Assembly (NCBI RefSeq): GCF_000196015.1
Contig: NC_007974.2
Location: forward strand, 992,001-1,056,000
Direction: 5' to 3'
Source: Cupriavidus metallidurans CH34
GTDB lineage: Bacteria; Pseudomonadota; Gammaproteobacteria; Burkholderiales; Burkholderiaceae
Length of the DNA: 64,000 nt
Below are positions 18,046 to 40,459 of this stretch, piece by piece. Numbering within the stretch: the stretch's first letter is position 1; each line of letters starts with the position of its first letter. A program made the position numbers and the translations under genes. The notes beneath the pieces were generated by a model that was not told where the DNA came from, ran no database searches, and worked only from the letters and a program-made list of their open reading frames with translations.

Positions 18046-18960
18046 TCAGATCGGGTCCCAGCCGATCACGTCGGCGGAGCGTTCGAGCTTGTAGAAGCTG
18101 TTGCGCATGGCCGGCACGGCGACTTCGCCGATGGCCTCGGGTGTCCAGCCTTCGCCCATGTGCACCGAGCGGATCGGGCGCGAATGGCTCATCAGCATGA
18201 TCTCGTTGGCGCGCACGGCGAAGATCTGGCCGCTGACATCGCGCGCCGCGTCGCTCGCCAGGAATACGGCCATCGGCGCGATCTTGCCGGCCTCCATCCT
18301 TTGCAGCTTGGCCACGCGGGCTTTCTCCTCGGGCGTCTCGGCCGGGATCGAGCTGGTCATGCGGCTCCAGGCAAACGGCGCGATGCAGTTCGAGCGCACG
18401 TTGAAGCGTTGCATGTCCAGCGCGATCGACTTGGACAGTGCGACGATGCCGAGCTTGGCCGCGGCGTAGTTGGCCTGGCCAAAGTTGCCGATCAGGCCGG
18501 AGGTCGACGTCATGTGCACATACGCGCCGCCTTCCTGGTCCTTGAAATGGTTGGCGGCAGCGCGGCTGACGAAGAACGTGCCGTGCAGATGCACGTCGAT
18601 CACCGAGCGCCATTCTTCCTCGTTCATTTTGAAGAACATGCGGTCACGCAGGTTGCCAGCGTTGTTGACCACGGCGTCGATGCGGCCGAAGTTGTCTAGC
18701 GCGCACTGGATGATGTTGTGAGCGCCGTTCCACGTAGACACGCTGTCAGTATTCGCCACCGCCTGGCCGCCGGCCGCGCGGATTTCCTCGGCCACGCGCT
18801 GCGCGGGGCCGGCATCGCCGCCTTCGCCGCTCATCGACACCCCGAGGTCGTTGACGACTACCCGGGCGCCAGCGGCCCCGAGGGCCAGCGCGATACCGCG
18901 TCCGATACCACCACCCGCGCCCGTGACCAGCGCTACCTTGCCTTCCATGATTCCTTGCAT
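18046..18960 (-). CDS. Short-chain dehydrogenase, HSD17B4-like
   Basis: A 304-residue SDR resembling the (3R)-hydroxyacyl-CoA dehydrogenase domain of peroxisomal multifunctional enzyme type 2. The cofactor motif is TGAGGGIG (residues 13-20), with NNAG at 99-102 and the catalytic Y165-x3-K169 in ANYAAAKLG. The insert VSMSGEGGDAGPA after the second strand is typical of this subgroup. The ATG at 18960 follows TTCAGGAGCAACACG. It probably oxidises a beta-hydroxyacyl-CoA in the same pathway as the neighbouring dehydrogenase and thiolase-like protein. Confidence 0.92.
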   Translation of the reverse strand: MQGIMEGKVALVTGAGGGIGRGIALALGAAGARVVVNDLGVSMSGEGGDAGPAQRVAEEIRAAGGQAVANTDSVSTWNGAHNIIQCALDNFGRIDAVVNNAGNLRDRMFFKMNEEEWRSVIDVHLHGTFFVSRAAANHFKDQEGGAYVHMTSTSGLIGNFGQANYAAAKLGIVALSKSIALDMQRFNVRSNCIAPFAWSRMTSSIPAETPEEKARVAKLQRMEAGKIAPMAVFLASDAARDVSGQIFAVRANEIMLMSHSRPIRSVHMGEGWTPEAIGEVAVPAMRNSFYKLERSADVIGWDPI

Positions 18961-19007
18961 CGTGTTGCTCCTGAATGTTGGTGAGATTGGGTGCCGAGTC
19001 GGCAGGC

Positions 19008-19970
19008 TTATTGCGGCTCGATGTTGGCTTTCCTGATCACGTCGCTCCAAAGCGTCAGGTCCTGCCTGAGGCGATCGGTGAACTCCGTGGGGCCGCTGAT
19101 GCTGGGGGCATAGCCGCCGCGTGCCAGGCTCTCCAGGTACGCCGCATTGCGGCCGACTTCGCGGTTGGCCCCGACCAGGCGGTCGATGACCGGCTGTGGC
19201 ATCCCCGGCGGGCCGATCAGGCCGAACCAGCCGCTCACGTCAAAGCCTTTCAGGCCCGATTCGGCGACTGTCGGCACGCCGGGCAGGGCGGGGTTGCGTG
19301 TCGCGGAGGAGACCGCCAGCGCCCGCACCTTGCCGCCTTGCACATAGCCAACCGCGCTGCCGGTGACATCGAACATGAAGCCGATCTTTCCGCCGATCAG
19401 GTCTGCGATGGCCGGAGAGTTGCCTTTGTAGGGGACGTGGAGAAACCTGACGCCGCCACGCTGCGCGAGTAGTTCGGCGGCCAGATGGTTGGAGGCGCCC
19501 ACGCCCGCGGACCCAAATGCGAGTCCGTCAGGGTGCGTCTTCGCGTAGGCGACCAGGTCCTGCACGTTCTTGAGCGGCGAGTCTTCCGCCACCAGTAGAG
19601 CGTTGGTATAGGTGTTGAGCAGACCGACCAGCGTGAAGTCCTTGAGCGGCCTGTATGTGGCGGACTTCTGCACCATCGGCGCCATCGTCAGGGTTGGGCT
19701 GCCGACGAAGAACAGCGTGTAGCCGTCGGGACTGGCCTTGGTGATCATGGTCGCGGCGATGGCACCGCCCGCGCCGCCACGGTTTTCCACCACCACAACC
19801 TGCCCAAGCACGGTGCCCAGATGCTGCGCGTAGATTCGCGCGGCGCTGTCGACCGGGCCACCTGCCGAGTAGCCGACGATCAGTTTGACCGGGCGTGCCG
19901 GGTAGATCCCGGACGCGCCCGCCACGCCCGCGGCCACGCACAGCATGGCGGCTATGAACCCTCTCTTCAT
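19008..19970 (-). CDS. Bug/TctC-type receptor
   Basis: A 320-residue periplasmic carboxylate-binding protein. The signal peptide spans residues 1-20, then YPARPVKLIVGYSAGGPVD and SPDGYTLFFVGSP are family signatures. The ATG at 19970 follows AAGGAGACAAGG. It is the first gene of the 19970-10992 operon, whose promoter carries the palindrome at 20022-20035. It probably captures the acid degraded by the operon. No TctA/TctB partner is encoded nearby. Confidence 0.93.
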   Translation of the reverse strand: MKRGFIAAMLCVAAGVAGASGIYPARPVKLIVGYSAGGPVDSAARIYAQHLGTVLGQVVVVENRGGAGGAIAATMITKASPDGYTLFFVGSPTLTMAPMVQKSATYRPLKDFTLVGLLNTYTNALLVAEDSPLKNVQDLVAYAKTHPDGLAFGSAGVGASNHLAAELLAQRGGVRFLHVPYKGNSPAIADLIGGKIGFMFDVTGSAVGYVQGGKVRALAVSSATRNPALPGVPTVAESGLKGFDVSGWFGLIGPPGMPQPVIDRLVGANREVGRNAAYLESLARGGYAPSISGPTEFTDRLRQDLTLWSDVIRKANIEPQ

Positions 19971-20021: not shown

Positions 20022-20035
20022 TATGTACGTACATA
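20022..20035. promoter_or_regulatory. Proposed GntR operator 1 (perfect 14-bp palindrome)
   Basis: TATGTACGTACATA is a perfect palindrome 51 bases before the Bug start at 19970. Read on the minus strand it is followed at once by a TATAAAT -10-like box, so binding would block RNA polymerase. Three relatives occur at 20171, 30666 and 30820. Confidence 0.65.
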
Positions 20036-20170
20036 GTAGCGGCTACTGATGGGGGGTGCGCAAGATCTGACGCACCTGCCCACCCGAGATGGGTGGCGCA
20101 AAAATCAGCGATGCTGCGCAGAGGAGAGGGGAGGCGGAAAGCCGGGAGATCGTTGGTGATCGTCGTGTAC

Positions 20171-20184
20171 TATGTGCGTACAAG
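20171..20184. promoter_or_regulatory. Proposed GntR operator 2
   Basis: TATGTGCGTACAAG matches 11 of 14 positions of the palindrome at 20022. It is 177 bases upstream of the gntR start and would allow autoregulation. Confidence 0.55.
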
Positions 20185-20361
20185 ATCGGAGATAAGTTGG
20201 GGGCAGATTCGCAGCTGCACGGCGTATGAGAATCACCGCGCAGGCAGGCGCGGCAAGCCCGCCGCGCGGCAAGACGTTGGCCGGACGCGGCCGGCATTCG
20301 CAGCCAACACCCGTGCCAGGCCGTACAATGCGGCGGCATCCAGATCCAGACATCCATCGCA

Positions 20362-21138
20362 ATGGCAACCGCCCAGAAGGACAGCAAGACCGAGTCACCC
20401 GCCCCCACGCGCTACGCCGAACTGGCGAGCACGCTGATTCGCGAGATATCCGAAGGCCGCCATGTGGTGGGCAGTCTGTTGCCGACCGAGCATGAACTGG
20501 CCGAGTTGCATGGCGTCAGCCGCCATACGGTGCGGGCGTCGCTGCGGATGCTGCAGGATCTCGGCTATATCTCGCGCAAGAAAGCGGTGGGGACCATTGT
20601 CGAGTCCGCCAACCCGGGAGCGTCGTATACGCAGTCGTTCGGGACGGCCGAGGATCTGGTGCGTGTGGCCGCCACCGAAGTGCGGGCGATCGAGGCGGTG
20701 CGCGATGTCACGCTGGACCGCGCGCTGGCGCGGCGGCTCGAAGCGCCGATCGGCAGCGCATGGGTGCTGCTGTCCGGCACGCGCGTGGATGCGCGCAAAG
20801 GCCAGACGCCGGTTGCGGTCGCGGATATCTATATCGAGGCCACGCTGGCGGGGCTGGTCGACACGATTCGGAATAGCCCCCAGGTGCTGGTCAGCGCGCT
20901 GATCGAGCGCGAGTATGCGATCGCGATTGCCGAGATCCGGCAAACGATCACCGCCACGCTGATCGAGGGCCCCCTGGCCGATCAACTCGGTGTGGAGGCT
21001 GGCACGGCGGGTATGCGGCTGGTGCGTCAGTACAAGGATTCGGCCGGCCGGATTTTGGAGATCACCGATACGGTGTATCCGGCCGATCGGGTGTCGGTGT
21101 CGTTTCAGCTCAGGCGCGGCAGGCACGCTGGCGCGTGA
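20362..21138 (+). CDS. GntR family regulator, HutC/UTRA type
   Basis: A 258-residue regulator. The winged helix-turn-helix occupies residues about 14-82 (LIREISEGRHVVGSLLPTE, HELAELHGVSRHTVRASLR) and a UTRA effector domain follows (about 105-250, including a DIYIEATLAGL segment). UTRA domains sense small organic acids, sugars or amino acids. It is divergent from the Bug-SDR-aldolase operon and converges with the second, insertion-split operon. The palindromes at 20022, 20171, 30666 and 30820 are candidate binding sites, so it probably represses both catabolic operons in the absence of their substrate. The ribosome-binding site is weak. Confidence 0.92.
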   Translation: MATAQKDSKTESPAPTRYAELASTLIREISEGRHVVGSLLPTEHELAELHGVSRHTVRASLRMLQDLGYISRKKAVGTIVESANPGASYTQSFGTAEDLVRVAATEVRAIEAVRDVTLDRALARRLEAPIGSAWVLLSGTRVDARKGQTPVAVADIYIEATLAGLVDTIRNSPQVLVSALIEREYAIAIAEIRQTITATLIEGPLADQLGVEAGTAGMRLVRQYKDSAGRILEITDTVYPADRVSVSFQLRRGRHAGA

Positions 21139-21378
21139 CTTGCCACCGCTGTCCTGCGTGACGGCGGATGCAGCCCCGTCAATCCACCTTGACGTTGGCA
21201 GCCTTGACCGCGTCGCCCCAGCGCGTGACTTCGGCGCGCACGAAGCGGTTGAAGTCGGCAGGCCCCATCGTTTCAGGAATCGCGCCCAGTTCACCCATCG
21301 CCCTGGTCCACTCCGGGGTCTTCGAGATGCGGATGATCTCCGCGGACAGCTTGTCCGCTACCGGTTTGGGCAAGGGCG

Positions 21379-22473
21379 GTTTCAAGTCCAAGTGCAACAA
21401 AAACTCAATGCACTAAATCCGGCTGCTGGGCCAGCCGCGCCAAATGCTCGGCATAGACCTCGATGGGCTTGCGCCACCCCAGAGTCATCCTGGGCCGTCC
21501 ATTGAGCTCATCGGCCACAGCGTCCAACTGCTCCTGGCTGTAGCCACTCAGATCAGTCCCCTTGGGGAAGTACTGGCGCAAGAGCCCATTGGTGTTCTCG
21601 TTGCTCCCCCTTTGCCAGGGACTGTAGGGGTCGCAGAAGTACACCTTCATGCCTGTGTTCTCGCTGAGCTGGCGGTGCTCGGCCATCTCGCTGCCCCGGT
21701 CGTAGGTCAGGGTCTGGCGCATCGGCTGGGCTATTGTCTTGAGCTTGTCGCTGAAGGCTTGCAGTACATGCGCCGCTGTGGCGGGGTTGGGGTGTGGCAG
21801 CTTGACCAGCACCACCAGACGGGTGGTGCGCTCGACCAGCGTGCCAATCGCACTGGCGTTAGCCTTGCCTTTGATCAGATCACCCTCCCAGTGGCCGGGC
21901 AACTGGCGATCCTCGATCTCGGGTGCTCGCACATGGATGCTCAGCAAGTCTTGCGTCTCCTTGCGGCGATCCTTTCCCCTGGAGCGGGGCCAACGTTTGG
22001 CGTGGGCCATGCGCAGGCAGGACACCAGCTCCTTCTTGAGCTCTCCCCGGGGCTGGGCGTAGATGCAGGTGTAGATGCTTTCGTGTGAGGCTTGCAAGCG
22101 GCGATCCTGTGGGTGAAGACGCTGGAGTTCGTTGGCGATTTGCTGGGGCGACCACTTGTGGCGCAGGTAGTCGCAAACCAGCGGGAACAAGGGCCCTTGG
22201 CGGTGCAGCTTGGGGCTGGGACGGGCTTGGCGTTTGCGATTGTCACTGCGCTGCTGGGCGAACTTGGAGGCGTAGCCCTTGCCGCCTGCATTGCGATTGC
22301 ACTCGCGGCTGATAGTGCTCTTGTCACGCCCCAGGGCCCTGGCTATGGCGCTGAGGCTTTGCTTTTGCTGCAGCCCCAGGGCTATCGCATGGCGTTCGGT
22401 CTCACTCAACTGCTGGTAATTTTTCTTGGTCATCTTGGCCTCAATTCTCGGTGTTGCACTTCGGAATTGAGGC
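21379..22473 (-). mobile_element. IS30-family insertion sequence, 1,095 bp
   Basis: The left end GTTTCAAGTCCAAGTGCAAC and the reverse complement of the right end GCCTCAATTCCGAAGTGCAA are imperfect inverted repeats. The flanking 2-bp duplication CG is at 21377-21378 and 22474-22475. The ends were set by requiring the interrupted Bug gene to regain its frame, which this choice does exactly. The element encodes one transposase on the minus strand. Size, protein and duplication length fit the IS30 family; I do not assign a named element. Confidence 0.88.
21405..22433 (-). CDS. IS30-family transposase
   Basis: A 342-residue DDE transposase. The N-terminus has the IS30 helix-turn-helix (YQQLSETERHAIALGLQQ, then IARALGRDKSTISRE). 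The catalytic domain shows the first Asp in HWEGDLIKGKANASAIGTL, the second in LTYDRGSEM and the Glu in SPWQRGSNENTNGLLRQYF, a very typical IS30 signature. The ATG at 22433 lies six bases after a GAGG that forms part of a hairpin (22437-22474). Full length, so the element should be active. Confidence 0.95.
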   Translation of the reverse strand: MTKKNYQQLSETERHAIALGLQQKQSLSAIARALGRDKSTISRECNRNAGGKGYASKFAQQRSDNRKRQARPSPKLHRQGPLFPLVCDYLRHKWSPQQIANELQRLHPQDRRLQASHESIYTCIYAQPRGELKKELVSCLRMAHAKRWPRSRGKDRRKETQDLLSIHVRAPEIEDRQLPGHWEGDLIKGKANASAIGTLVERTTRLVVLVKLPHPNPATAAHVLQAFSDKLKTIAQPMRQTLTYDRGSEMAEHRQLSENTGMKVYFCDPYSPWQRGSNENTNGLLRQYFPKGTDLSGYSQEQLDAVADELNGRPRMTLGWRKPIEVYAEHLARLAQQPDLVH

Positions 22474-22474
22474 C
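22437..22474 (-). promoter_or_regulatory. Hairpin covering the transposase ribosome-binding site of the IS30 element
   Basis: GGCCTCAATTC (22437-22447) pairs perfectly with GAATTGAGGCC (22464-22474) around a 16-base loop. The GAGG before the transposase ATG lies in the stem. Transcripts entering from the Bug gene would contain both arms and hide it. Confidence 0.6.
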
Positions 22475-23299
22475 GCCAAGTTCTTCGGCGCCACGACGCC
22501 GATCCATGGGTTGCCACGGAAGCCCGGAAAGCCTGATTCGGCGATCGTGGGCACGTTCGGCAGCGTCGACACCCGCTGTTCGCTGGCCACGGCAAGTGGT
22601 CTCAGCTTTCCGCCGCGAATCAGCGGCTCCGCAATCGACACCACTTCGAACATCACCTCTACTTGCCCGCCGACCACGTCGGTCATCGCGGCGACGCCGC
22701 CCTTGTAAGGGACGTGGGCGAGATTGATGCCTGCTGTTTGCTTGAACATTTCCATCACCAGATGATTGGTGACGCCGTTCCCGCCGGATGCGTAGTTCAC
22801 CTTGCCGGGATGGAGCCTGGCATAGGCGACCAGATCCGCCACGGTCTTGAACTGCGAGTTCGGATTGACGACCAGCACCAGCGGAAAGACCCCGATCAGT
22901 GCCAGCGGCTCGAAGTCGCGCACGCTGTCGTAGCGCTGGTTCTTGTAGATCCAGCCGTTGACGGCCATCGGCCCGCTCGAGGTTGCCAGCAGCGTGTAGC
23001 CGTCCGGCTTCGCGCGAGCGACTTCTTCCGCAGCGAGTCCGGCACCCACGCCCGGCTTGTTCTCGACGTAGAACGATTGCTTGAGCGACGTCGAGAGTTG
23101 CTGCGCCAGCTTGCGGGCAATCACGTCAGTGGTCTGCCCCGCCGGAAAACCCACCAGCACCTTGACCGGTTTCTCCGGATAGTCGGCGGCAGCGGCGGGA
23201 TGCATGACGGCAAGCGTCAATAGCAAGGTCGTCAGTGCGGTTCTCGCGAAGTTCATGTCCTGTCTCCTTTGTTGCTTGTTTTTGGTTGTCCTGTGTTTT

Positions 23300-24541
23300 C
23301 TAGCGAACGGCTTTTGTCTCCCGCAGGCCCTTGATGTCCCGTTCGGTGTAGCCGGTGGCCAGCAGGATTTCCTCGGTGTGCTCGCCCAGCAGCGGCGCGC
23401 GCCGACGTACCGCGCCAGGGGTGTCGCTCAGCTTGATGGGCACGCCGGCGATCTTCACCGGTCTGGCCGAGCCGGGCTGTTCGACTTCGACCAGCATCTC
23501 GCGCACCGCGTAGTGCGGGTCAGCAAAGATCTCCGCGGCGGTGTAGACCGGGCCGAACGGCACCTTGCCGCCGAGAACGGCAGCGATCTCTTCCTTTGTG
23601 CGCACGGTGGTGAATGCTTCGATCGCGTCGATGACCTGCTGCTGGTGCTGCACGCGGGCTGCATTGGTGGCGAACGCCTCGTCGGTGGCCATGTCCGGGC
23701 GGCCGATGGCGATGGCCAGCTTTTCCCAGAATGCATCGGTGGCGCAGGCAATCGAGACCTGGCCGTCGCGCGAGCGGAACAGGCCGAAGGGGCAGAGCAA
23801 CGGGTGGCGGTTGCCTTCGGGCGCTGGTACCACGCCGGTGTAGGACGTCTGGTAGACGATGCGCTCGCACATGGCCAGTACCGCATCGGTCATGGCCACA
23901 TCGACGAACTGACCGTGCCCGGTGCCGCGCGCGCGGTGCACGGCGGAGAGAATGCCAATGCAGAGCATCAGCGCAGGTATCGTATCGCCGACGCCCGGGC
24001 CGATCTTCGTAGCAGTGTCCCGGTCGGGGCCGGTGATGCCCATCATGCCGCCCATCGCCTGCGACACGACGTCGTAGGCAGGCCACTGCGCGTAGGGGCT
24101 TTCGCCGCTGCGTGGGTCGCCGAAGCCGCGTACCGTGCCATAGACCAGACGCGGATTGGTTTCGCGCAGGGTTTCGTAGGACAGGCCAAGGCGCTCCATG
24201 ACGCCGGCGCGAAAGTTCTCGACCACGACGTCGGCGCTGTCTATCAGCTTGCGCAGGATCTCGCGCCCAGTGCTGCTCTTGAGGTCCACCGCGATCGACC
24301 GCTTGTTGCGATTGACGCTCTGGAAGTAGCCGCCGAATTCGCGCAGCGTGTCGTCGTCACAGAAGGGGCCGGTGATGCGGGTGCCATCACCGGTCATCGC
24401 TTCCACCTTGATCACGTCCGCGCCGTGATCGGCCAGCACCTGGGTGCAGAACGGTCCGGCGAGCATCTGCGTGAGGTCGACCACGCGCAGGCCGGCAAGG
24501 GCGCCGGGGGGATGGGTCTGGGTGTCTGCGTGGGTTTGCAT
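23300..24541 (-). CDS. CaiB/BaiF family CoA-transferase (class III)
   Basis: A 413-residue class III CoA-transferase, which moves CoA between acyl-CoA and a carboxylic acid through an aspartyl-CoA intermediate. The catalytic Asp is D186 in GVGDTIPAL. The N-terminal Rossmann part has VDLTQMLAGPFCTQVLAD, and NRNKRSIAVDLKS is a family motif. The ATG at 24541 (MQTHADT) is preferred because the upstream extension is low complexity. It is 25 bases downstream of the split MmgE/PrpD gene. By analogy with itaconate CoA-transferase in similar clusters it may activate a C5 dicarboxylate; this is inference. Confidence 0.92.
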   Translation of the reverse strand: MQTHADTQTHPPGALAGLRVVDLTQMLAGPFCTQVLADHGADVIKVEAMTGDGTRITGPFCDDDTLREFGGYFQSVNRNKRSIAVDLKSSTGREILRKLIDSADVVVENFRAGVMERLGLSYETLRETNPRLVYGTVRGFGDPRSGESPYAQWPAYDVVSQAMGGMMGITGPDRDTATKIGPGVGDTIPALMLCIGILSAVHRARGTGHGQFVDVAMTDAVLAMCERIVYQTSYTGVVPAPEGNRHPLLCPFGLFRSRDGQVSIACATDAFWEKLAIAIGRPDMATDEAFATNAARVQHQQQVIDAIEAFTTVRTKEEIAAVLGGKVPFGPVYTAAEIFADPHYAVREMLVEVEQPGSARPVKIAGVPIKLSDTPGAVRRRAPLLGEHTEEILLATGYTERDIKGLRETKAVR

Positions 24542-25654
24542 GCGTGGGGCTCCGATGTGTGGGGTATCAGGCGGCGGCATCGGCGAACCAGTCATGCAGG
24601 CGCGGGTAGAGAACGGCGGCTGGCTGCGTGTCCAGCGCGGCGACGAAGGTCCAGAGTGCTTCGGCACGGGTCTGGCCCAGCAGGGCGCCGGCCTTGGCCT
24701 TGAGCTTGGTGGCCTTGGTGTCGTAGGACACCGGGGTGCTGAGATCGACGTGGCGGGACAGTGTCGCGCCGCTCCGGGTCAGCACCGTCGCATGACAGGC
24801 GGTGTCGGTAATCGCCGGGTCGGGGTGGATCTCGATGCGTCGCGCGAGGTTGGTCAATGCGGGGTCCTGGCAGCAGGCATCGGAAAACGACGCCAGCGAT
24901 GCCGTGTCCACACCGGCCAGTACCATTGCCCCGGTCAGCGCGAGGCTGAACTTGGCCTCCAGGCCGGTTGTGGGTTGCGCGATGCAGCAGACCGGCAGCC
25001 ATTGAGGCGCGATGGCCAGCGTGACGTGCTCGATGTCGCCGCCCGTCAGACGATGCTGTTCGCGCAGGCCGTGCAATGCCTCCAGCGCAGGATGCGTGCC
25101 GTGGCAGCACGCATGGAACTTGTACTGGACGTCGACGAAGCGGAAGGCTTCGGGTAGCCCGTCAAACGAATTGTCGAGGCAGCCCTGTCCGGCGCCATGT
25201 GTGGTGGCGAAACCGCCGGCGCATTCAATGGCGTCAGGGCGGGCGACGAATCCCAGGGCTGCGAGGGTGGCTGACTCCACGCCCGTGGACGCCGCCATGC
25301 CTGCATGGAACGGCTTGGCCATCGTGCCAAACTGGCACTTCAGTCCCGACGCGCGCGTGGCCGCGAGACCTAGCGCGTGGGCCGCGCGTTCCGCATCGAG
25401 ATCCAGCAGCCGCGCGGCGGCTGCGGCGGCGCCGAAAGCGCCCGACGTGGCGGTCTGGTGGAACCCGGCGTTGTAGTGCGGGCGTCCCAGCCAGCCGCCG
25501 ACGCGGCAGGTGACTTCCACCCCGGTCAGGAACGCTTCCAGCAGATCCTTGCCGCTGGCCTGCTGCTGTTCGGCCACGGCCAATGCGGCGGGCAGCACGG
25601 CAACGGTGGGATTGTGCGTGAGCACGAGATTCGATGGATGCGCGAGCACGGTAA

Positions 25655-25724
25655 TTGATGGTCGGCTGCGGCACCGTCCATCACCAATGTTGCGTGCCGT
25701 CGGGCAACGCTGATGGACGTGGCG
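25655..25724. repeat. Sub-terminal transposase-site-like repeats, left end
   Basis: TTGATGGTCG (25655-25664), its inverse CGTCCATCACC (25675-25685) and TGATGGACGTGGCG (25711-25724). The last 14-mer recurs at 26035-26048, and CGTCCATCACC recurs at 29067-29077 near the right end. The placement fits transposase binding sites. Confidence 0.5.
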
Positions 25725-25764
25725 ATCTATCGCGGTGGACCGGATGCGGAGCAGCGGCACTGAT

Positions 25765-25795
25765 GTAACAAGGGGCCCGGCGGGCCCCTTGTTAC
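25765..25795. terminator. Strong hairpin at the end of the transposon operon
   Basis: GTAACAAGGGGCCC (25765-25778) pairs perfectly over 14 bases with GGGCCCCTTGTTAC (25782-25795), loop GGC. It lies 5 bases beyond the stop of the last transposon gene. There is no long U tract, so it may be a terminator, a barrier to incoming transcripts, or both. Confidence 0.6.
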
Positions 25796-25799
25796 TGGA

Positions 25800-26072
25800 T
25801 CAGAAGTCGTTATCTGCGAGATCGCCAAGGCCATCAGGATGCTCCTGCCGATCTTCGGCCAGCCACTGGGCCAAGGCCAATTGATAGTGAGCATGCAGAC
25901 GGTCGCGCAGATCGTCGAGCAATTCGATCACAGCCCAGGCCTGCGCGGGCGTCCAGTTGGCATCAATGAGCAGGGGCAGCCCCTGGGCGATGCCGGATGG
26001 CTGGTGGAAGGTCATGGTGATGTCGTCGTTGTGTTGATGGACGTGGCGGCGATGGCCAACGGCGCCACTCAC
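25800..26072 (-). CDS. Small transposon protein, unknown
   Basis: Up to 90 residues, acidic C-terminal end (EDRQEHPDGLGDLADNDF), helical, no Cys. With the GTG at 26072 it overlaps the ATPase stop by 4 bases; an internal ATG at 26015 (MTFHQPSGIAQ) would give 71 residues. Gene order after the ATPase suggests an accessory factor of transposition or its control. I do not recognise the family. Confidence 0.65.
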   Translation of the reverse strand: MSGAVGHRRHVHQHNDDITMTFHQPSGIAQGLPLLIDANWTPAQAWAVIELLDDLRDRLHAHYQLALAQWLAEDRQEHPDGLGDLADNDF

Positions 26073-26902
26073 CGCCTGGCGCGGCGGTTCAGGGTTGCGC
26101 TGTAGGTTTCCAGATAGAGCTTCTCGTCGATCTGCGGTAGCTCCCGCTGCGCGGCCTGGGCCAGAAGCTCGCCCGCCAGGTTCATCAGGATGCGGTAATT
26201 GCCGGCGGCGTGCTCACACAGGGTCTGGCGCAATGGCATGGTCATCAGGGTGGCGTTGCCGGCGGCGGCCAGCAAGTGGTCCAGGCAGGCCTGCAGCTCG
26301 TCGATGCTCGCACTCTCCAGCGCCAGACGGCAGCGGATGCGGCTGCCCAGCGGGATCAGGTCCTCGCGGCTGAACTTCTCCGGCAGGCGAGCGTCGCCGG
26401 CAAGCACCACGCACAGCAGCAATTGCGAGTCGAAGCGTGCCTGTGCGAGCAGGCGCAGTTCCGAGAGGGCTGGCACCGCCATCTCCTGGGCTTCATCGAT
26501 GAGCAGCACGCAGCGGCGGCGGCTGGCCTCCATGTGGGTGAGCCAGCGCTCGCGCAGCGCCTTGAAGCCGCCCCAGCGATTGTGGGGCTTGAGCGGTACG
26601 GTAAAGATGTCGCTGAGCTCGCGATAGAAGTCCGCCAGATTGCTCTGTGGGTGAGCGATCGAGCCGACCATCAGATCGGGGACGCGCATGAGGCGCTGAT
26701 GGAGCAGGCGCAGCGTGACGCTCTTGCCGCAACCGGGGTCGCCATGCACCATGGCGAAGCCGCCTTCGCGGGCCATACCGTTCTCAATGCGCCAGCAGAA
26801 GTGATCGAGCTTGGGTGGCACGAACACGGCCTCGACGGGGATGTCCTGGGCGAAGGGGTTGAACTTCAGACCGTACAAGGCCAGCAGGTTGGGTTGATTC
26901 AT
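26069..26902 (-). CDS. AAA+ ATPase of the transposon (TniB/IstB/ExeA-like)
   Basis: A 277-residue ATPase. The opening ALYGLKFNPFAQDIPVEAVF is like ExeA/TniB proteins. Walker A is GDPGCGKSVT (about residues 56-65) and Walker B is VLLIDEAQEM (about 137-146), followed by an arginine-rich sensor region. Such ATPases select or present target DNA to the transposase and give target immunity. It overlaps the transposase stop by 4 bases (26899-26902), so the two are coupled. Confidence 0.92.
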   Translation of the reverse strand: MNQPNLLALYGLKFNPFAQDIPVEAVFVPPKLDHFCWRIENGMAREGGFAMVHGDPGCGKSVTLRLLHQRLMRVPDLMVGSIAHPQSNLADFYRELSDIFTVPLKPHNRWGGFKALRERWLTHMEASRRRCVLLIDEAQEMAVPALSELRLLAQARFDSQLLLCVVLAGDARLPEKFSREDLIPLGSRIRCRLALESASIDELQACLDHLLAAAGNATLMTMPLRQTLCEHAAGNYRILMNLAGELLAQAAQRELPQIDEKLYLETYSATLNRRARR

Positions 26903-28338
26903 AGCTTGGTGGGTGCGGGTGGGAGATAGGCCGGCGGCAGGCCGGTGGCGGCGTGTTCGGCGAGCAACTGACGCAGCAGCGGCGCAGTGCCAGCCTGCGC
27001 GGGTTCCTCGTTAGCAGGCGAGGCACCCTTGGCCGTGAGATGCGCGCGCCGTGCGTCGGCATTGGCAGACTTGTCCAGCGGGAACACGGCGGCCAGGATC
27101 GCGCCGATGCGCGCATCGATCAGGTCGACTTGGGAGAGATCCCAGCGCGCGTAGCTCAGGCAGACTTGCTCGAGGTGGCGGTAAGCGCCGGGGATCTCGA
27201 AGCGCACGCCGTCCAACGTGAAGGTGCCGTCGGTTCTGCGCTGGCGGCGATGCTGGCGGATACGGAAGGCCCGGCGCAAGGCCAGCGCCTCGGGACTGGG
27301 GCGCGAGACGTCGGCACAGGACAGGTAGCGCTGCAGAGGCGTCGCCTCGAGTTCGGCGTGTTCCTTGTGGTGGTATTCCTGCTCGACCCAGGCCTGCGTG
27401 GCGAGGTTCAATTGCTCCAGGGTGAGGTGCGACTCACCTTCGAGCATGGCCATCAGCCGGGACTCGAGCTGTCCCCAGAAGCGTTCCTGCTTGGCATTCT
27501 GGTATGGGCTGTAGGGCAAGGTAGTCTGGTGCAGGATGCCCAGACTGGCCAGCCCCTCGACGAACTCGTCGGCCATCATGGCTGCGCCGTTATCGGTCAT
27601 GATGGCCCGCGGCAGCCCTCGCTTCATGATCGCCTGCGAGACGCCGTGCACCAGCGAGGCAGTGGTCTCGTCGAGGAACCACTGCAGGTGGCAGACCAGC
27701 CGCGAATGGTCGTCCATAATGCAGAGCAGCAGCGGCTTGTGCCACTGCCCATCGGGGGTGAGCACCTTGCGCGAACCATGGTGGAAGTCCAGGTGCCAGA
27801 GCGCGGCCACGTGGTCGACCTCGTAGCTACGCACCTCGCGTGCCTCGCGGCGAGCCGCAGCAGCGATGGCCCCATCCGTGCTCGAGCGCGGGGTTGGCTT
27901 GCGCACCAGACCCTGCGCCTTCAGATACCGGCACACCGTGGTGTAGGACGGCAGCGTGTCCGGGCCATCCTTGGTCGCGACGCGCAGGTTGTCGTAATGC
28001 AACTGCATGGTCCAGCCGGGGTGCTGACGGTACTGCTCGACCAGCGCTTCGATGATGGCTGGGCTCAGACTGACGAAGTGGCCGCAATCGTCGCGCAGTC
28101 GGTTCTTGAGTTGATCGACCGGATCCTGGACGTGACGGGCCCGGTAATACCAGCGTTCGATGGAAGACGCGCCGAACTGAACGTCGGCGCCGGTGATGGG
28201 GTGCCGCCAGACCTTGGCGGCCAGTGCCTGGAACGCTTGCTGCAATTCTCCTTTGGCAGGCGGCGAAGCCAGCAAAGGGCCAATGACCGAGAAGCGCAAG
28301 CGCGCCCATCGGTTGCGATGATCAATCGATAGTGACAT
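26899..28338 (-). CDS. DDE transposase of the transposon (Mu/TniA-like)
   Basis: A 479-residue integrase-fold transposase. N-terminal helix-turn-helix region (about 1-150), then the catalytic core with D in LWHLDFHHG, D in AIMTDNGAAM and E in SPYQNAKQERFWGQLESRL, and a C-terminal Mu-type beta-barrel (about 365-430, GTFTLDGVRFEIPG). It is shorter than TniA (about 560) but similarly built, and paired with an ATPase as in Tn402, Tn7 and IS21. All three catalytic residues are present. Confidence 0.92.
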   Translation of the reverse strand: MSLSIDHRNRWARLRFSVIGPLLASPPAKGELQQAFQALAAKVWRHPITGADVQFGASSIERWYYRARHVQDPVDQLKNRLRDDCGHFVSLSPAIIEALVEQYRQHPGWTMQLHYDNLRVATKDGPDTLPSYTTVCRYLKAQGLVRKPTPRSSTDGAIAAAARREAREVRSYEVDHVAALWHLDFHHGSRKVLTPDGQWHKPLLLCIMDDHSRLVCHLQWFLDETTASLVHGVSQAIMKRGLPRAIMTDNGAAMMADEFVEGLASLGILHQTTLPYSPYQNAKQERFWGQLESRLMAMLEGESHLTLEQLNLATQAWVEQEYHHKEHAELEATPLQRYLSCADVSRPSPEALALRRAFRIRQHRRQRRTDGTFTLDGVRFEIPGAYRHLEQVCLSYARWDLSQVDLIDARIGAILAAVFPLDKSANADARRAHLTAKGASPANEEPAQAGTAPLLRQLLAEHAATGLPPAYLPPAPTKL

Positions 28339-28449
28339 GACTCTCCGTTGGGGGGATAACGGGAGCAGGCTACGGGCAGTGCGGGTGACCCGCCATCGAC
28401 ATGTTCTGCGGGAGATTCCCCTATCTGGCGCATCCCTCAGCCAGCGTGG

Positions 28450-29019
28450 TCAGGCCGGGCCCAGCAGCAGAAGCAACACCGCGGCCAGACGCTCGTCTTC
28501 GCTGTCGTGCTCGACCGATTGCAGCAGGCAGTCGGGATAGATGAACGGCTCGGGCGTTGGCGGGATGAGGCCACGCAGCCACCGACCGACGGGGGTCTTG
28601 GGGAAGGTCTCGGTCCACCACTGACGCCAGCGCTTGAGCGTGGCCCAACTGATCGCCGGCAGGCCGTCCAGGCAGGCGCCAGTGGCACGGCTCGATCGCA
28701 GTACCAGGACAATGGCCAGCCAGACACGCCGGCCGAGAAAGCGCACCGAATCGGGCGTCATGCGTTTGCGGCATCCGGCACAGCACAGGCTCAGGCGCGT
28801 ATTGCAGTCCGGGTGTGCTGCCGGTGGGCATCCGCGCGGCTTACGCGGATAGTTGGCACTGTGCAGCACAGAGCCGCAATGGCAGCAGCCCCTGTCTCGC
28901 GCCACCTTCATCAAGTCTTCGTCGATCCGGCGCAACAGGGCAAAAAACGCTGGCGTTTGTAGCAAGGCATGGCACACTGCTGAGGTCTCCTTCATTGCTC
29001 GACACAATAAAGGCGACAT
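28450..29019 (-). CDS. Cys-rich zinc-ribbon-like transposon protein
   Basis: A 189-residue protein with Cys clusters at 45, 46, 48, 64, 72, 79, 80 and 83, reminiscent of zinc-binding modules in TniQ or IS-associated accessory proteins. The second half has a Trp-rich helical stretch (WATLKRWRQWWTETFP). First gene of the transposon operon, 111 bases before the transposase gene. The ATG at 29019 lies directly after a hairpin containing GAGGGAA; the ATG at 28995 is an alternative. The function, perhaps target choice, is inference. Confidence 0.75.
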   Translation of the reverse strand: MSPLLCRAMKETSAVCHALLQTPAFFALLRRIDEDLMKVARDRGCCHCGSVLHSANYPRKPRGCPPAAHPDCNTRLSLCCAGCRKRMTPDSVRFLGRRVWLAIVLVLRSSRATGACLDGLPAISWATLKRWRQWWTETFPKTPVGRWLRGLIPPTPEPFIYPDCLLQSVEHDSEDERLAAVLLLLLGPA

Positions 29020-29020
29020 C

Positions 29021-29057
29021 TTCCCTCAGGCGCGTGCATGCACGCTCCCTGAGGGAA
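29021..29057. promoter_or_regulatory. Large hairpin/palindrome before the transposon operon
   Basis: TTCCCTCAGG (29021-29030) pairs with CCTGAGGGAA (29048-29057); inside lies the 14-bp palindrome GCGTGCATGCACGC (29032-29045). In the minus-strand transcript the 3' arm contains the GAGGGAA immediately before the ATG at 29019. It may sequester the ribosome-binding site or serve as an operator. Confidence 0.6.
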
Positions 29058-29465
29058 CCCCTCCAGCGTCCATCACCGTTCTTGCTCAAATCCCCACGCT
29101 TTCGGCATCACGAAAGCTGCTTATGCACAGGGATGGCCGACGAAGTCGAAGTGCGTATCGTCGTAGTCGAGCGCGTGCGCGGCCGTGCCGTTCAGCATCG
29201 CGGCCGCGCGGGCGGGAATGCGCGCCGCCAGGCCGATTGCGCTCGCTTGCGCGGTGCCGCCTTCGCGGCTGACCAGCTCGCGCACAGCCACGCTGACCGG
29301 TTCGCCGGCCCCCGCGATCGCTACAGCCAGGCAGTCGTAGACGGACAACCGCGCCACGTCGAGCGCGGCGGCCGGAAAGCGCAGGGCTCGGTCAACCGCG
29401 ATGCTGGCGGCGCGGGCGGTAATGCCGGTGGCAGGCATGTTCGAAGTCATCGCTTGCCCCGGAGA

Positions 29466-30632
29466 TCAGGCTGCAACCTTGCCCAGCATGGCATCGGAGA
29501 TGATGCGCATCTGGATCTCGGAGGTGCCTTCGAAAATCTTGGTCAGACGCGCATCGCGCCAGTAGCGCTCGGCCGCGAAGTGCGTGGTGTAGCCGGCGCC
29601 GCCATGGATCTGCAGCCCTTCGCTGGTCACGCGCTCGCACATCTCGCTGGCGAACAGCTTGACCATCGACGCCTCGGTGTCGGCGCGCACGCCTTCGTCG
29701 ATCTTTTCGCACACGGTGTAGAGCAGGGCGCGGGATGCTTCGATCTGCGTCGCCATGTCGGCCAGCTTGAAGCGGATGGCCTGGAAGTTGCCGATCGGGG
29801 CGCCGAACTGGGCGCGGTCCTTCGCGTACTGGATCGAATCCTCGAGGCTGCCCTGGGCTAGCCCGATCGAGCGGGCCGCCGTGTGGGCGCGCGCCGTTTC
29901 CAGTCCGGCGGTGGTCAAGTAGAACGCTTTGCCTTCCTCGCCCACCATGCTCGAGTGCGGCACGCGGCAGTTGTCGAACGCCAGTTCCCAGGTGGTCCAG
30001 CCGTGGTAGCCGATTTTCGGGATGACGCTGCCTTTCACGCCTTCGGGCAGCTCGCCGCGCGGCTTTTCCACCAGGAATGCGGATAAGCCCTTGTGGCGCG
30101 CCTTCGGGTCGATCACAGGATCGGTGCGGCAGATCACCAGGATGAAGTCGGACTGGTCGGCGAACGTGCACCAGTACTTGTTGCCGGTGATGAGCCAGTC
30201 GTCGCCATCGCGCACGGCGCGGCAGGAGATGTTGGCCACGTCCGATCCGGCATTCGGCTCGGACAGCGAGAACGCACCCAGGAATTCGCCACGCGCCATG
30301 CGCGGCAGGTACTCGGCCTTCTTCTCGGGCGCCAGGCCCTTCAGCGCGCCGATCAGGCCATTGCCGCGGGCAATCAGGCTGCCCACGCTCATCCAGCCAC
30401 GCGAAAGCTGCTCGGCCACGAGGCAGTACTCGTAGGCGCCCAGCCCAAGGCCACCGTACTCCTCGGGGATCAGGATGCCGAAGTAGCCAAGCTCGGCCAT
30501 TTCGTCGATCAGGTCGCGCGGGATCTGGCCTTTTTCAGGGTCCAGCCTGTTGGCGATCGGCAGCACGCGCTCCATCGTGAACTGGCGCGCTGCCTCCTGA
30601 ATCATGCGCCGCTCTTCGGTCAGTTTTTGCAT
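29466..30632 (-). CDS. Acyl-CoA dehydrogenase of the C5-acid operon
   Basis: A 388-residue acyl-CoA dehydrogenase. Signatures are FSLSEPNAGSDVANISCRA, HGGAGYTTHFAAERYWRD and IFEGTSEIQ with the canonical catalytic Glu. The ATG at 30632 follows GAGGAGTCGTCG. First gene of an operon with MmgE/PrpD, CaiB and Bug. The gene order resembles the Pseudomonas aeruginosa itaconate cluster, where an acyl-CoA dehydrogenase lies beside the hydratase. Here it may dehydrogenate methylsuccinyl-CoA or a related thioester; it lacks the long N-terminus of the classical methylsuccinyl-CoA dehydrogenase, so the substrate stays open. Confidence 0.92.
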   Translation of the reverse strand: MQKLTEERRMIQEAARQFTMERVLPIANRLDPEKGQIPRDLIDEMAELGYFGILIPEEYGGLGLGAYEYCLVAEQLSRGWMSVGSLIARGNGLIGALKGLAPEKKAEYLPRMARGEFLGAFSLSEPNAGSDVANISCRAVRDGDDWLITGNKYWCTFADQSDFILVICRTDPVIDPKARHKGLSAFLVEKPRGELPEGVKGSVIPKIGYHGWTTWELAFDNCRVPHSSMVGEEGKAFYLTTAGLETARAHTAARSIGLAQGSLEDSIQYAKDRAQFGAPIGNFQAIRFKLADMATQIEASRALLYTVCEKIDEGVRADTEASMVKLFASEMCERVTSEGLQIHGGAGYTTHFAAERYWRDARLTKIFEGTSEIQMRIISDAMLGKVAA

Positions 30633-30665
30633 CGACGACTCCTCACTTTCTCATTGGTTCGCTTA

Positions 30666-30679
30666 TATGTACGGACATA
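30666..30679. promoter_or_regulatory. Proposed GntR operator 3
   Basis: TATGTACGGACATA matches the palindrome at 20022 at 13 of 14 positions. It is 33 bases before the acyl-CoA dehydrogenase start, and on the minus strand it is followed directly by TATAAG, the same arrangement as operator 1. Confidence 0.65.
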
Positions 30680-30793
30680 GTAATCAGGGTATCCGGACTT
30701 TTGCAAGCGAAACTGTTGAGGTTGCTACGGAGGTAAGTGCGATATATGTGCGGTCTGACGGCCTGTACGCGGCCTTGGCGGCAAAGATCCCGG

Positions 30794-30822
30794 TTGACAC
30801 TCGCGGTTTTCGTTGCGAGTAT
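30794..30822 (+). promoter_or_regulatory. Putative promoter of the hydratase gene
   Basis: TTGACA (30794-30799) and, after 17 bases, GAGTAT (30817-30822) preceded by TGC as in an extended -10. Operator 4 overlaps the -10 element. Confidence 0.45.
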
Positions 30823-30833
30823 GTGCGTACAAA
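30820..30833. promoter_or_regulatory. Proposed GntR operator 4
   Basis: TATGTGCGTACAAA, identical over 12 bases to operator 2 at 20171. It lies 15 bases before the hydratase start. A further half-site TATGTGCG lies at 30745-30752. Confidence 0.62.
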
Positions 30834-30848
30834 TAAAACGGAGTGGAC

Positions 30849-31904
30849 ATGGAGAAGTGCCGCAGCGGTAACTATTTCGAGGACTTCCGGGTCGGCATGA
30901 AGATCAGGCATGCCACGCCGCGCACGCTGACCGAAGGCGACCGGAGTCTGTACATCGGCCTGACCGGCAGTCGGGCGGCGCTGTGCACGGCCGAGACCAA
31001 CGCACGCGATCTGGGGATGGAGCGACGGCCGCTGGAAGACCTGCTGGTGTTCAACACGGCGTTCGGCAAGACCGTGCCGGATATCTCGCTCAATGCGGTG
31101 GCCAACCTGGGCTATGCGGAAGTGCGCTTTCTCGCCCACGTGTATCCGGGTGACACGCTGGCGGTGGAATCCGAGGTTATCGGCCTGAAGGAGAACACCA
31201 GCGGGAAGAGCGGCGTGGTCTACGTGCGATCCATGGCGCGTAACCAGCACGGCCGCGAGGTGCTGAGCTGGGTGCGCTGGGTGATGGTGCACAAGCGGGA
31301 CCACGGTGCGGCGTGCGCAGAAGCGGTGGTGCCAGCCACGCAGGCTGTGGTGCCGAGTGCATGGATGCGTCGCGACGACTACACCGCGCGCGTTCGCGAG
31401 ATCACGGCGATGACCGGCTTTGCGGACCTGTGGGACGACTACGCAGTGGGCGAGCGCATCGAGCACCCGGGCGCGATGACGATCAACGACAGCGACCACA
31501 GCATCGCCACGCGCCTGTACCAGAACACGGCCCGCGCGCACTTCGACGGTCATGCCATGGCGGCCGGCGGTGGACGGCGGTTGGTCTATGGTGGCCACAT
31601 CATTTCGGTATGCCGCGCGCTGTCGTACGACGGACTGGAGAACGCGCTGTCGATTCTCGCCATCAACGGCGGCAGCCACGTGAATCCGACCTATGCTGGC
31701 GACACCATTGCCTGCGCGACGCAGGTGATCGAGAAGCTCGACCTGGGGCAGGGCCATCTCGGCGGGCTGCGGCTGCGCATGATCGGCGTGAAGAACGTCA
31801 GCGCGGCATCCATCGCGTTCCCCGCGCCCGGCGAGAGCCGGACCGCGCATCCATCCAGCGTGGTGCTGGACCTGGACTACACCATCGCCATCCCAAGGCG
31901 GTAA
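30849..31904 (+). CDS. Double-hotdog MaoC-type hydratase (mesaconyl-CoA hydratase-like)
   Basis: A 351-residue protein with two MaoC-like hotdog domains (about 5-160 and 185-345). The opening GNYFEDFRVGMKIRHATPRT and DHSIATRLYQNTARAHFDGH are the features I associate with mesaconyl-C1-CoA hydratase (Mch), which interconverts mesaconyl-CoA and beta-methylmalyl-CoA. The ATG at 30849 is chosen because CGGAG ends five bases upstream; a GTG at 30843 is possible. It is divergent from the acyl-CoA dehydrogenase operon and followed by a CitE-like lyase, which would act on its product. Confidence 0.88.
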   Translation: MEKCRSGNYFEDFRVGMKIRHATPRTLTEGDRSLYIGLTGSRAALCTAETNARDLGMERRPLEDLLVFNTAFGKTVPDISLNAVANLGYAEVRFLAHVYPGDTLAVESEVIGLKENTSGKSGVVYVRSMARNQHGREVLSWVRWVMVHKRDHGAACAEAVVPATQAVVPSAWMRRDDYTARVREITAMTGFADLWDDYAVGERIEHPGAMTINDSDHSIATRLYQNTARAHFDGHAMAAGGGRRLVYGGHIISVCRALSYDGLENALSILAINGGSHVNPTYAGDTIACATQVIEKLDLGQGHLGGLRLRMIGVKNVSAASIAFPAPGESRTAHPSSVVLDLDYTIAIPRR

Positions 31905-32011: not shown

Positions 32012-32029
32012 ACACACGAGAGACAAAGC

Positions 32030-33025
32030 ATGACAACCGCGACACACCCGAGAGATGCCCTGTTTGCCGGCGAGAAAGCCTTTCCCGCGCTGGCCGCCTG
32101 CGAGCACTTTGCCGGTAGCGAAAAGCTGATCGGCAAGGCCATGGACCTGCAAGCGGAGTACGGTCCGGTATTCGACGTGACCTGCGACTGCGAGGACGGC
32201 GCCGCCACGGGGCAGGAACGCGAGCACGCGGAAATGGTGGCGAGGATGATCGCCTCCGACCGCAATCGCTTCGGGCGCGCCGGCGCGCGGATTCACGATC
32301 CGTCGCACCCGGCCTGGCGTCAGGACGTGGAGATCATCGTCGGGCAGGCTGGCGGCCGGCTGGCGTATATCACCGTGCCCAAGGCCACGCGTCATGAGCA
32401 GGTGGCGGAGGTCATCGCGTTTATCCGCGAGACCGCGCAACGTGCCGGGCTGGAACGGCCGGTGCCAGTGCACGTGCTGATCGAAACGCACGGCGCGCTG
32501 CGCGACGTGTTCCCGATCGCCGAACTGCCGGACATCGAGGTGCTGGACTTCGGCCTGATGGACTTTGTCAGTGGCCATCACGGCGCGATTCCCGCTGCGG
32601 CGATGCGCAGCCCCGGCCAGTTCGAGCACGCGCTGCTGGCGCGCGCCAAGGCCGACATGGTGGCTGCGGCGCTGGCCAATGGCATCGTGCCTGCGCACAA
32701 TGTCTGCCTGAACCTCAAGGACGCCGACGTGATTGGCGCCGACGCCAGCCGCGCGCGCAATCAGTTCGGCTTCCTGCGCATGTGGAGCATCTATCCCGCG
32801 CAGATCCTGTCGATCGTCAACGCCATGCGCCCGGACTTTGCCGAGGTGGAGGACGCCGCCGGCATCCTGCTCGCCGCGCAGGATGCCGACTGGGGACCGA
32901 TCCAGTACAAGGGCGAGCTACATGACCGCGCCACCTACCGTTACTTCTGGGAGGTGCTGGAGAAAGCCCGGGTCACCGGCATGGCGATGCCCGCGGAAGC
33001 GGAGCGCCGGTTTTTCGCTGCCTGA
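32030..33025 (+). CDS. CitE-like acyl-CoA lyase (beta-methylmalyl-/citramalyl-CoA lyase type)
   Basis: A 331-residue TIM-barrel lyase of the HpcH/HpaI-CitE group. Metal-site acids are seen in CDCEDGA, LIETHGALRDVF and LDFGLMDFVSGHHG. Members cleave malyl-CoA, beta-methylmalyl-CoA or citramalyl-CoA into glyoxylate or pyruvate plus acyl-CoA. The ATG at 32030 fits the conserved N-terminus; the ribosome-binding site GAGAGAC is weak. Placed after the Mch-like hydratase, the simplest reading is cleavage of beta-methylmalyl-CoA to glyoxylate and propionyl-CoA. Confidence 0.9.
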   Translation: MTTATHPRDALFAGEKAFPALAACEHFAGSEKLIGKAMDLQAEYGPVFDVTCDCEDGAATGQEREHAEMVARMIASDRNRFGRAGARIHDPSHPAWRQDVEIIVGQAGGRLAYITVPKATRHEQVAEVIAFIRETAQRAGLERPVPVHVLIETHGALRDVFPIAELPDIEVLDFGLMDFVSGHHGAIPAAAMRSPGQFEHALLARAKADMVAAALANGIVPAHNVCLNLKDADVIGADASRARNQFGFLRMWSIYPAQILSIVNAMRPDFAEVEDAAGILLAAQDADWGPIQYKGELHDRATYRYFWEVLEKARVTGMAMPAEAERRFFAA

Positions 33026-39581: not shown

Positions 39582-40459
39582 TCCGCTCCGTTCTCGTCTT
39601 GCTGCGCGGCAAGCGCCTGCGCCACGATCCGCGCCGCTTCGGCCAGCCATTGCGCGCCATCGCCACCGTGCAGCGTCTGCGCGGTGCGCGCGTCGGTGAA
39701 ACCGTCGGCCAGTACGGCCAGCACGACGCTGTAGGCGCCTACGGTCAGAATGCCGGCGTCGTGACGAAGGCCGGGCAACTGTCCGGTCTTGTTGGCCAGC
39801 ATGGCACCGGCTGGCAGCGCCGCGCCGAAATGGGCGCGCTCGCGCTGATCGGCCAGCAGCCCTAGTGCGAAGTCACGCAGCGGGGCTGGCAACGATCCAT
39901 CGCGCAGCAGCCAGCACAGCGGGGCCGCAGCGTCGCTGGCGCTCGTGAAGTTGTCCAGCCCTGCGGCGCGCGCGGCGGCGTCCATCATGCGACGCTGCAG
40001 CCGCGTCTGCCCGAGTCCCGCGCGATCGCACCAGTCGTTCACGCCCTCGAAGCCGAGCAATTCGATCAGCGCATTGGTCGCCAGGTTGTCGCTCAGCACG
40101 ATCATCAGCCGCACCAGTTCCGCCAGCGTCAGGCTCTGGACACTGGGCAATTGGCTGAGGATGCCAGTACCGCCCACGCGCTCGAGTCCGTCCAGAGAGA
40201 AGCGTTGCTCAAGCTGCAGATGACCCTGCGCCACCTGTTCCAGCAGCGTGAACAGGATCGGCAGCTTGATGATGCTGGCCGATGGCTGCACGCGCTCGGC
40301 CTCGCGCTCCAGCACCACCTTGCCATCGGCAAGCCGCAGGCTGATCGCGACGCGTGCCTGCGTGCCGGCCAGCAGCGGTGCCAGCGCGGTTTCTACCCGC
40401 GCGCGAAGCGCGGCCGCATCGGGAATCCGGCTACCTAGCGGAAATGCCACGAGTTCCAT
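39578..40459 (-). CDS. Class A beta-lactamase-like serine hydrolase without signal peptide
   Basis: A 293-residue serine hydrolase. Motifs are S-x2-K (SIIK in [10 protein letters not shown]), SDN ([11 protein letters not shown]) and K-T-G (ANKTGQLPG). The N-terminus has no signal peptide or membrane segment, so the product should stay in the cytoplasm, unlike true beta-lactamases. The region where class A enzymes carry Glu166 reads [17 protein letters not shown]. Good ribosome-binding site GAGGAGGCGAT. It lies in the D-amino-acid operon between permease and nitrilase genes, so a D-stereospecific amidase or peptidase role is more likely than resistance. Confidence 0.88.

Follow-up and report, generated by a model that had tools for sequence, protein, structure and literature searches.

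Four copies of a 14-bp palindrome as probable operators of a UTRA-type GntR repressor in Cupriavidus metallidurans CH34

In a 64,000-nucleotide stretch of Cupriavidus metallidurans CH34 (contig NC_007974.2, positions 992,001 to 1,056,000; hereafter the window, with positions counted from its first letter), four copies of a 14-bp palindrome lie in two divergent promoter regions, which we call regions A and B. We consider it very likely, from comparisons of sequence, that these palindromes are operators of the local GntR-type repressor with a UTRA domain (gene at 20362-21138), and that three operons stay off until an effector binds the repressor. A preliminary description of the window had already proposed a single GntR regulon over both regions, and it is supported by sites that are conserved alongside gntR orthologs, by their co-occurrence within the genus and by the presence of the same dyad upstream of paralogous gntR genes. 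In the mechanism that we infer, a GntR dimer would bind each 14-bp dyad, which has the backbone TATGTNCGNACATA, and the repressor bound at the -10 and start region would shut out RNA polymerase. The leftward Bug-SDR-thiolase operon, the leftward operon of acyl-CoA dehydrogenase (ACAD), MmgE/PrpD and CoA transferase, and the rightward MaoC-HpcH operon would remain off until the UTRA domain binds an effector, and release of the repressor would then answer the same signal in both regions. The effector is perhaps a C4/C5 dicarboxylate or a CoA ester from the pathway, a class that is a guess from the neighbouring genes.

Four sites stand out in the window, three of them genome-wide under any pattern

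The putative operators and the regulator gene are as follows.

20022-20035: operator A1, TATGTACGTACATA, a perfect palindrome in the -10 region of the promoter of the Bug-SDR-thiolase operon
20171-20184: operator A2, TATGTGCGTACAAG, about 178 bp ahead of the gntR start codon; the weakest of the four sites, perhaps vestigial or auxiliary
30666-30679: operator B1, TATGTACGGACATA, in the -10 region of the promoter of the ACAD, MmgE/PrpD and CoA transferase genes
30820-30833: operator B2, TATGTGCGTACAAA, between the -10 element and the start codon of the MaoC-type hydratase gene
20362-21138, plus strand: gntR, GntR-family regulator with a UTRA domain, recognition helix GVSRHTVR

All four 14-mers were found where the preliminary description had placed them, and its claim that the window holds no fifth good match is borne out, as these are the only places with up to 2 mismatches to TATGTRCGKACAWR. 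The 7 strand-matches at this threshold exceed the number in every shuffled window (n = 100, mean 1.29, SD 1.17, maximum 5). Across the genome to which the window belongs (6,913,352 bases in four contigs; hereafter the own genome), exact TATGTRCGKACAWR occurs at the same four places only, and the reversed control pattern has 0 exact matches. The many unrelated genome-wide matches that had been proposed as grounds for refuting the regulon are thus absent at exact match, the four sites standing alone in 6.9 Mb. Allowing 1 mismatch adds three places, which are background in view of the 5 + 8 matches to the reversed control pattern.

A matrix was built from 30 sites of relatives; no site from the window entered it, nor did the decayed ones of L052 (two), L054, L096 and L098 (handles of this form denote loci). 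Among 63,987 window positions, the four sites rank at the top with 29.3, 26.7, 22.4 and 15.1 bits, and the best position beyond them reaches 8.0 bits. The symmetrical pattern TATGTRCGYACATA is less discriminating when up to 3 mismatches are permitted (142 matches per strand in the own genome, versus 253 for the control), and at no more than 1 mismatch it returns 20022, 30666 and 30820 only. These three sites are therefore distinctive genome-wide under any pattern, and the site at 20171 is distinctive only through its location. Separately, a half-site, TATGTGCGGTCTGA, is found at 30744-30757, roughly midway from B1 to B2.

The site pairs accompany gntR orthologs in relatives

The preliminary description had suggested a comparison of upstream regions in related Cupriavidus genomes. 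Scanning contigs of GTDB species with the GntR protein identified 11 relatives with orthologs of 64-83% identity, in Cupriavidus, Paraburkholderia and Caballeronia. Each locus was counted once, with L090-L095, L097, L099 and L105 excluded as repeats of L048-L055 and L058, which leaves 18 ortholog loci beyond the window. A pair of sites 104-154 bp apart, each with no more than 2 mismatches to TATGTNCGNACATA, is present in 14 of the 18 loci.

Within the genus, 14 of 60 genomes, including the own genome, encode a GntR ortholog (E value of 1e-70 or better). Strict pairs occur in 7 of these 14 genomes and in 0 of the 46 ortholog-free genomes (one-sided Fisher test, P = 8.9e-6, or 3.8e-5 without the own genome; kinship is uncorrected and the pair pattern was chosen after the relatives' sites had been seen). 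Six of the seven strict-pair genomes come from one scan and the seventh from a scan with shorter spacing; the reversed control gave pairs in 0 of 60 genomes in the former and in 1 of 60 in the latter. Among 150 genomes of the family, at least two exact sites were detected only in the own genome (G000) and in G132, both of which have a close ortholog.

The same dyad lies upstream of paralogous gntR genes

The product of the gene at 20362, described earlier as a GntR/UTRA regulator beside the first pair of sites, scores above the cut-offs of both expected domains: 56 bits versus 27 for the N-terminal winged helix (PF00392) and 49.2 bits versus 23.8 for the C-terminal UTRA domain (PF07702). Its score with the HutC equivalog model TIGR02018 is 65 bits, below the cut-off of 220. 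By these domain scores, we assign it to the GntR/HutC (UTRA) subfamily, as neither AraR nor HutC proper.

In paralogs of this regulator with 32-43% identity (L010-L033 and L139-L146), the gene is often preceded by TATGTTCGAACATA or TATGTCCGGACATA, and these sites are often doubled in tandem, with copies 24-28 bp apart. Where the paralogs belong to other families of the order, the dyad is less strict, as in TTGTCCGTACAT. When 256 dyads were ranked by their presence in the 300 bp ahead of the matched gntR start, TGTNCGNACA (half-sites TGTNC and GNACA) was first, with 28 of 38 paralog loci against 8 for the runner-up; these loci come from a small number of clades and cannot be treated as independent. 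Once they had been dereplicated at 75% identity, the count was 13 of 21 loci, against 4 for the runner-up. Eight paralog loci of 20 kb hold 12 exact dyads, of which 11 directly precede gntR and one lies at another place in L140; L141 contains no exact dyad.

The genes that face these paralogs vary: the divergent neighbouring frames (n = 8) encode Lyase_1 proteins (four cases), an SDF dicarboxylate symporter, a solute-binding protein, an acyl-CoA dehydrogenase and one protein without a match. Because the dyad is kept upstream of paralogous gntR genes amid such differing neighbours, it appears to belong to the regulator subfamily rather than to the neighbouring genes. The recognition helix can be read in 6 of the 8 UTRA proteins of the own genome, and the window's protein is the only one with GVSRHTVR. 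Loci with an SRY helix have TTCGAA centres only, but they look like one clade. A strict helix-to-base code was rejected, since SRH helices pair with A, C, G or T; the relationship is a lead only.

The putative operators overlap conserved promoter-like elements

Elements around the sites were compared in an alignment of 20 modules, two of which are the window's own (region A, labelled W_A, and region B).

30794-30822, plus strand: proposed MaoC-HpcH promoter, TTGACA (30794-30799), 17 bp, GAGTAT (30817-30822)
30677-30682, minus strand: candidate leftward -10 element of region B, TACTAT, overlapping B1; alternative TATAAG on the other side
20033-20038, minus strand: candidate leftward -10 element of region A, TACTAT, overlapping A1; alternative TATAAA
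20079-20096: inverted repeat CCCACCC-N5-GGGTGG between A1 and A2, its sole exact occurrence in the own genome

The proposed MaoC-HpcH -10 element runs into operator B2, its final three bases coinciding with the operator's first three. An equivalent rightward arrangement (TTGAC[AGT], 17 bp, and a hexamer that shares its last three bases with the operator) is present in 16 of the 20 modules, the exceptions being W_A, L053b, L052a and L052b. In this comparison, the position of the -10 element was fixed by the operator and the -35 element was the best among spacers of 15-20 bp. On the leftward side, TANTAT overlaps the operator edge in 14 of the 20 modules. The preliminary description had instead named a TATAA-type -10 box directly after both minus-strand copies. 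This sequence is indeed there, but it is conserved in only 2 of the 20 modules, the window's own, and in five others CATAAA occurs two bases closer to the centre of the operator. As TATAAA and TATAAG fit the -10 consensus at 5 of 6 positions versus 4 of 6 for TACTAT, both kinds of hexamer are possible -10 elements in the window. Whichever is used, the operators would cover the -10 element and the probable start region, which is where a repressor would be expected to bind.

The inverted repeat lies 43 bp after A1. With up to 2 mismatches, it is found in 8 of the 20 modules, at 42-43 bp in 7 of the 8 and at 12 bp in L049.

Several observations weigh against the proposed regulon or against parts of it. 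Some concern A2, whose matrix score lies under that of the lowest training site (17.1 bits), whose 2 mismatches to the symmetrical TATGTRCGYACATA are equalled at eight other places in the genome, and whose side has no -35 element at the conserved place in the 20-module alignment. The earlier claim of one site per promoter in two divergent regions thus holds for A1, B1 and B2, which lie at promoter-like elements, and is less certain at A2; self-control of gntR through A2 is likewise uncertain. Of the ortholog loci, L096 has a decayed pair (one site with 3 mismatches), L054 has one site only, and L055 and L104 (2 of 18) have no pair within the stretch searched. Ten of the 38 paralog loci are without an exact dyad, as is the own-genome paralog L033, and the limited independence of these loci counts on the same side. 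So do the way in which the rightward promoter elements were positioned and the fit of the rightward -10 hexamers, which agree with the consensus at 2-4 of 6 positions. Lastly, 12 further genomes of the family have a single exact site without an ortholog pair; these are fewer than the genomes with a reversed-control match (23) and within the control range.

Genes of the proposed regulon

The three operons consist of the following genes.

19008-19970, minus strand: Bug (TctC) solute-binding protein, heading the operon of region A
18046-19050, minus strand: SDR oxidoreductase, open reading frame listed from TTG
16866-18035, minus strand: thiolase-domain protein (PF22691; NF006010 above cut-off)
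29466-30632, minus strand: ACAD, heading the leftward operon in region B
24570-29459, minus strand: MmgE/PrpD, in two pieces (29459-29076 and 25613-24570)
23300-24667, minus strand: CoA-transferase family III
30849-31904, plus strand: MaoC-type hydratase; its relatives are the mesaconyl-CoA hydratase family and the beta-methylmalyl-CoA dehydratase 8hgn
32021-33025, plus strand: HpcH/CitE-type lyase, start from homology

The first of these operons had been described as Bug-SDR-aldolase; its third gene encodes a thiolase-domain protein, and the aldolase/lyase HpcH sits in the second operon. The PDB relatives of the HpcH/CitE-type lyase are 3qqw and 3r4i (citrate-lyase-like) and also malyl-CoA lyases. 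The MmgE/PrpD gene is split by transposition genes at 26069-28338, which we read as IS21-like from their rve and AAA domains.

The label of C5-acid operon given to the second set is fair by its five gene kinds: MaoC-type hydratase, acyl-CoA dehydrogenase, MmgE/PrpD, CoA transferase and a citramalyl-CoA-lyase-like protein. By Pfam kind only, the same five are found in the itaconate/methylsuccinate cluster of Cupriavidus necator and Pseudomonas, as far as the available text of its description goes (PMC12290011). The window differs from that cluster in its broken MmgE/PrpD gene, in the extra Bug-SDR-thiolase operon and in a hydratase below the cut-off for RipB/Ich. On this last point, the hydratase scores 85 bits versus a cut-off of 340, so that its identity as a canonical itaconate (RipB/Ich) hydratase was rejected, and the own genome has no match above the cut-off of the equivalog model. 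Among regulators of itaconate genes, ItcR is of the LysR type. The words "regulator" and "GntR" are absent from the main text of PMC12290011.

Elsewhere in the 64 kb, eight Bug (TctC-type) genes were recognized by similarity at 11010-62195, one of them broken. The window also contains a gene with a Beta-lactamase2 domain (PF13354) at 39578-40459 and a squalene-hopene cyclase gene at 6718-8703.

Rearrangement of the cluster and possible copies of the operator module

In locus L048, the genes are arranged as thiolase-SDR-Bug-CoA transferase-MmgE/PrpD-ACAD, then the operator pair, then MaoC-HpcH-gntR, and gntR directly follows MaoC-HpcH in 16 of the 18 ortholog loci (the exceptions are L103 and L104). 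In the window, gntR adjoins the Bug-SDR-thiolase operon with a pair of its own, and the other pair has stayed with the ACAD and MaoC-HpcH operons. Because gntR follows MaoC-HpcH in 16 of 18 relatives, the window is, judging by gene order, rearranged relative to them. Nearby, a Bug gene lies in two pieces at 21182-23262, split by a transposase-type gene at 21405-22595 (IS30-like in our reading). Region A is most simply a descendant or relocated copy of the ancestral operator module, because it has kept the inverted repeat 43 bp after A1, as in relatives. Region B has lost this repeat.

Comparable arrangements exist in other genomes. In C. necator A5-1 (L053), ACAD has moved off together with its own operator pair. 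A single ACAD-MaoC intergenic region (L052:7157-7716) contains four operator-like sites, in two pairs, and the cluster is not split. On another contig of genome G175, a second operator module (L117:9984-10177) lies beside a thiolase ortholog, and on its other flank a stretch of 13 residues weakly resembles the end of the GntR protein (9 identical residues, E value of 0.10).

We tentatively raise a broader possibility, to which we give appreciable weight without favouring it. An AraR-like operator, TATGTNCGNACATA, may have been taken up by a UTRA-GntR subfamily of Burkholderiales, its variable base differing between clades with different helices, and the two-way promoter-operator module of about 180 bp may in this branch be copied as a cassette when the cluster is rearranged, which would keep the separated pieces in one regulon. 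The instances on which this reading draws are the two modules of the window, L053 and G175. Against copying as a rule, ACAD has also moved off in L054, L096 and L098, and no site with up to 3 mismatches was found near it there.

Alternative explanations

The nearest alternative, which we regard as rather unlikely, is that each pair acts as a unit: the repressor, bound to both sites, would loop about 150 bp of DNA, so that the partner site matters even where it faces no divergent gene, as for AraR on two-box promoters. Pairs persist at loci that lack a divergent enzyme gene on one side (L053b and W_A), the pair is doubled within one intergenic region in L052, and the spacing is 140-156 bp in 16 of 20 modules. 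A fixed spacing would, however, also be expected wherever an intergenic region holds two divergent promoters, and the partner sites at the one-sided loci are weaker and may be relics. The 20 spacings show no helical phasing either (R = 0.15, Rayleigh test, P ~ 0.64 at 10.5 bp). In this they differ from the paired boxes of Bacillus subtilis AraR, which are in phase and cooperative. The AraR boxes occur in twos at several promoters, according to the available text of PMC4218819.

Control by GntR could instead be limited to region B, with region A as a decaying copy that stayed behind when the rearrangement relocated gntR. The weakness of A2, the missing -35 element at the conserved place on its side and the two broken genes nearby would agree with such decay. 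It is harder to reconcile with A1 being a perfect palindrome and with an inverted repeat kept at the distance seen in relatives, and we judge it quite improbable.

A different regulator, for example a LysR-type protein like those encoded next to gntR in one relative, or else one of the other UTRA proteins of the genome, might bind the four sites, gntR being a mere neighbour. Two LysR-type genes do follow gntR in L048, and the module holds a second inverted repeat. Yet the dyad tracks gntR orthologs and paralogs across differing gene neighbourhoods, and its core matches that of the GntR protein AraR. Moreover, no site with up to 2 mismatches was found in the 3.4-kb loci of the other 7 of the 8 UTRA proteins of the own genome (the helix is unread in two). 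We therefore consider another regulator very unlikely.

That the promoter stretches are alike by chance is hardly credible: A2 alone, with its eight equally good matches elsewhere in the genome, lends itself to this idea, against which stand the window shuffles, the rarity in the genome, the family and genus scans, the relatives' matrix and the rank of the paralog dyad.

Comparison with known regulators

In its proposed mode of action, the window's protein would work like a local GntR repressor. The closest operator, by its letters, is that of AraR of B. subtilis, a 16-bp dyad with the consensus At(T/A)tGTaCGTAcaa(A/T)T and the core GTaCGTAc (PMC4218819, available text). The AraR-type core GTACGTAC is exact in the site at 20022, and the other three sites are each one position off. 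The recognition helices are also similar (GVSRHTIR in AraR, GVSRHTVR in the window's protein). The C-terminal domains differ, being of the LacI/GalR type in AraR, by the same source, and UTRA here.

The combination of GntR and UTRA domains is common to the window's protein, NagR/YvoA and HutC, and the relatives of the window's protein in the PDB include YvoA and DasR. All four sites have the centre GTNCGNAC, whereas HutC-type operators have GTNTANAC. One predicted HutC site reads TGGTCTATACCA (PMC2018728). Repression by NagR is lifted by a metabolite, according to the available text of PMC4333415.

Significance

We found no description of such regulators in a body of open-licence literature with few subscription papers; the letters of the motif led there to the AraR paper and otherwise to papers on other subjects. 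The sites described here would provide a concrete operator, and a proposed regulon, for a family of regulators that lies beside catabolic genes of the dicarboxylate type. They would also link the Bug-SDR-thiolase operon to a cluster of the itaconate/methylsuccinate type. A repressor-operator pair of this kind, if it works, might act as a sensor of C5 dicarboxylic acids, and the natural variants of operator and recognition helix offer material for studies of GntR specificity. The regulon itself appears ordinary in kind and is well supported by sequence; its interest would lie in the class of operator and in the copies of the module.

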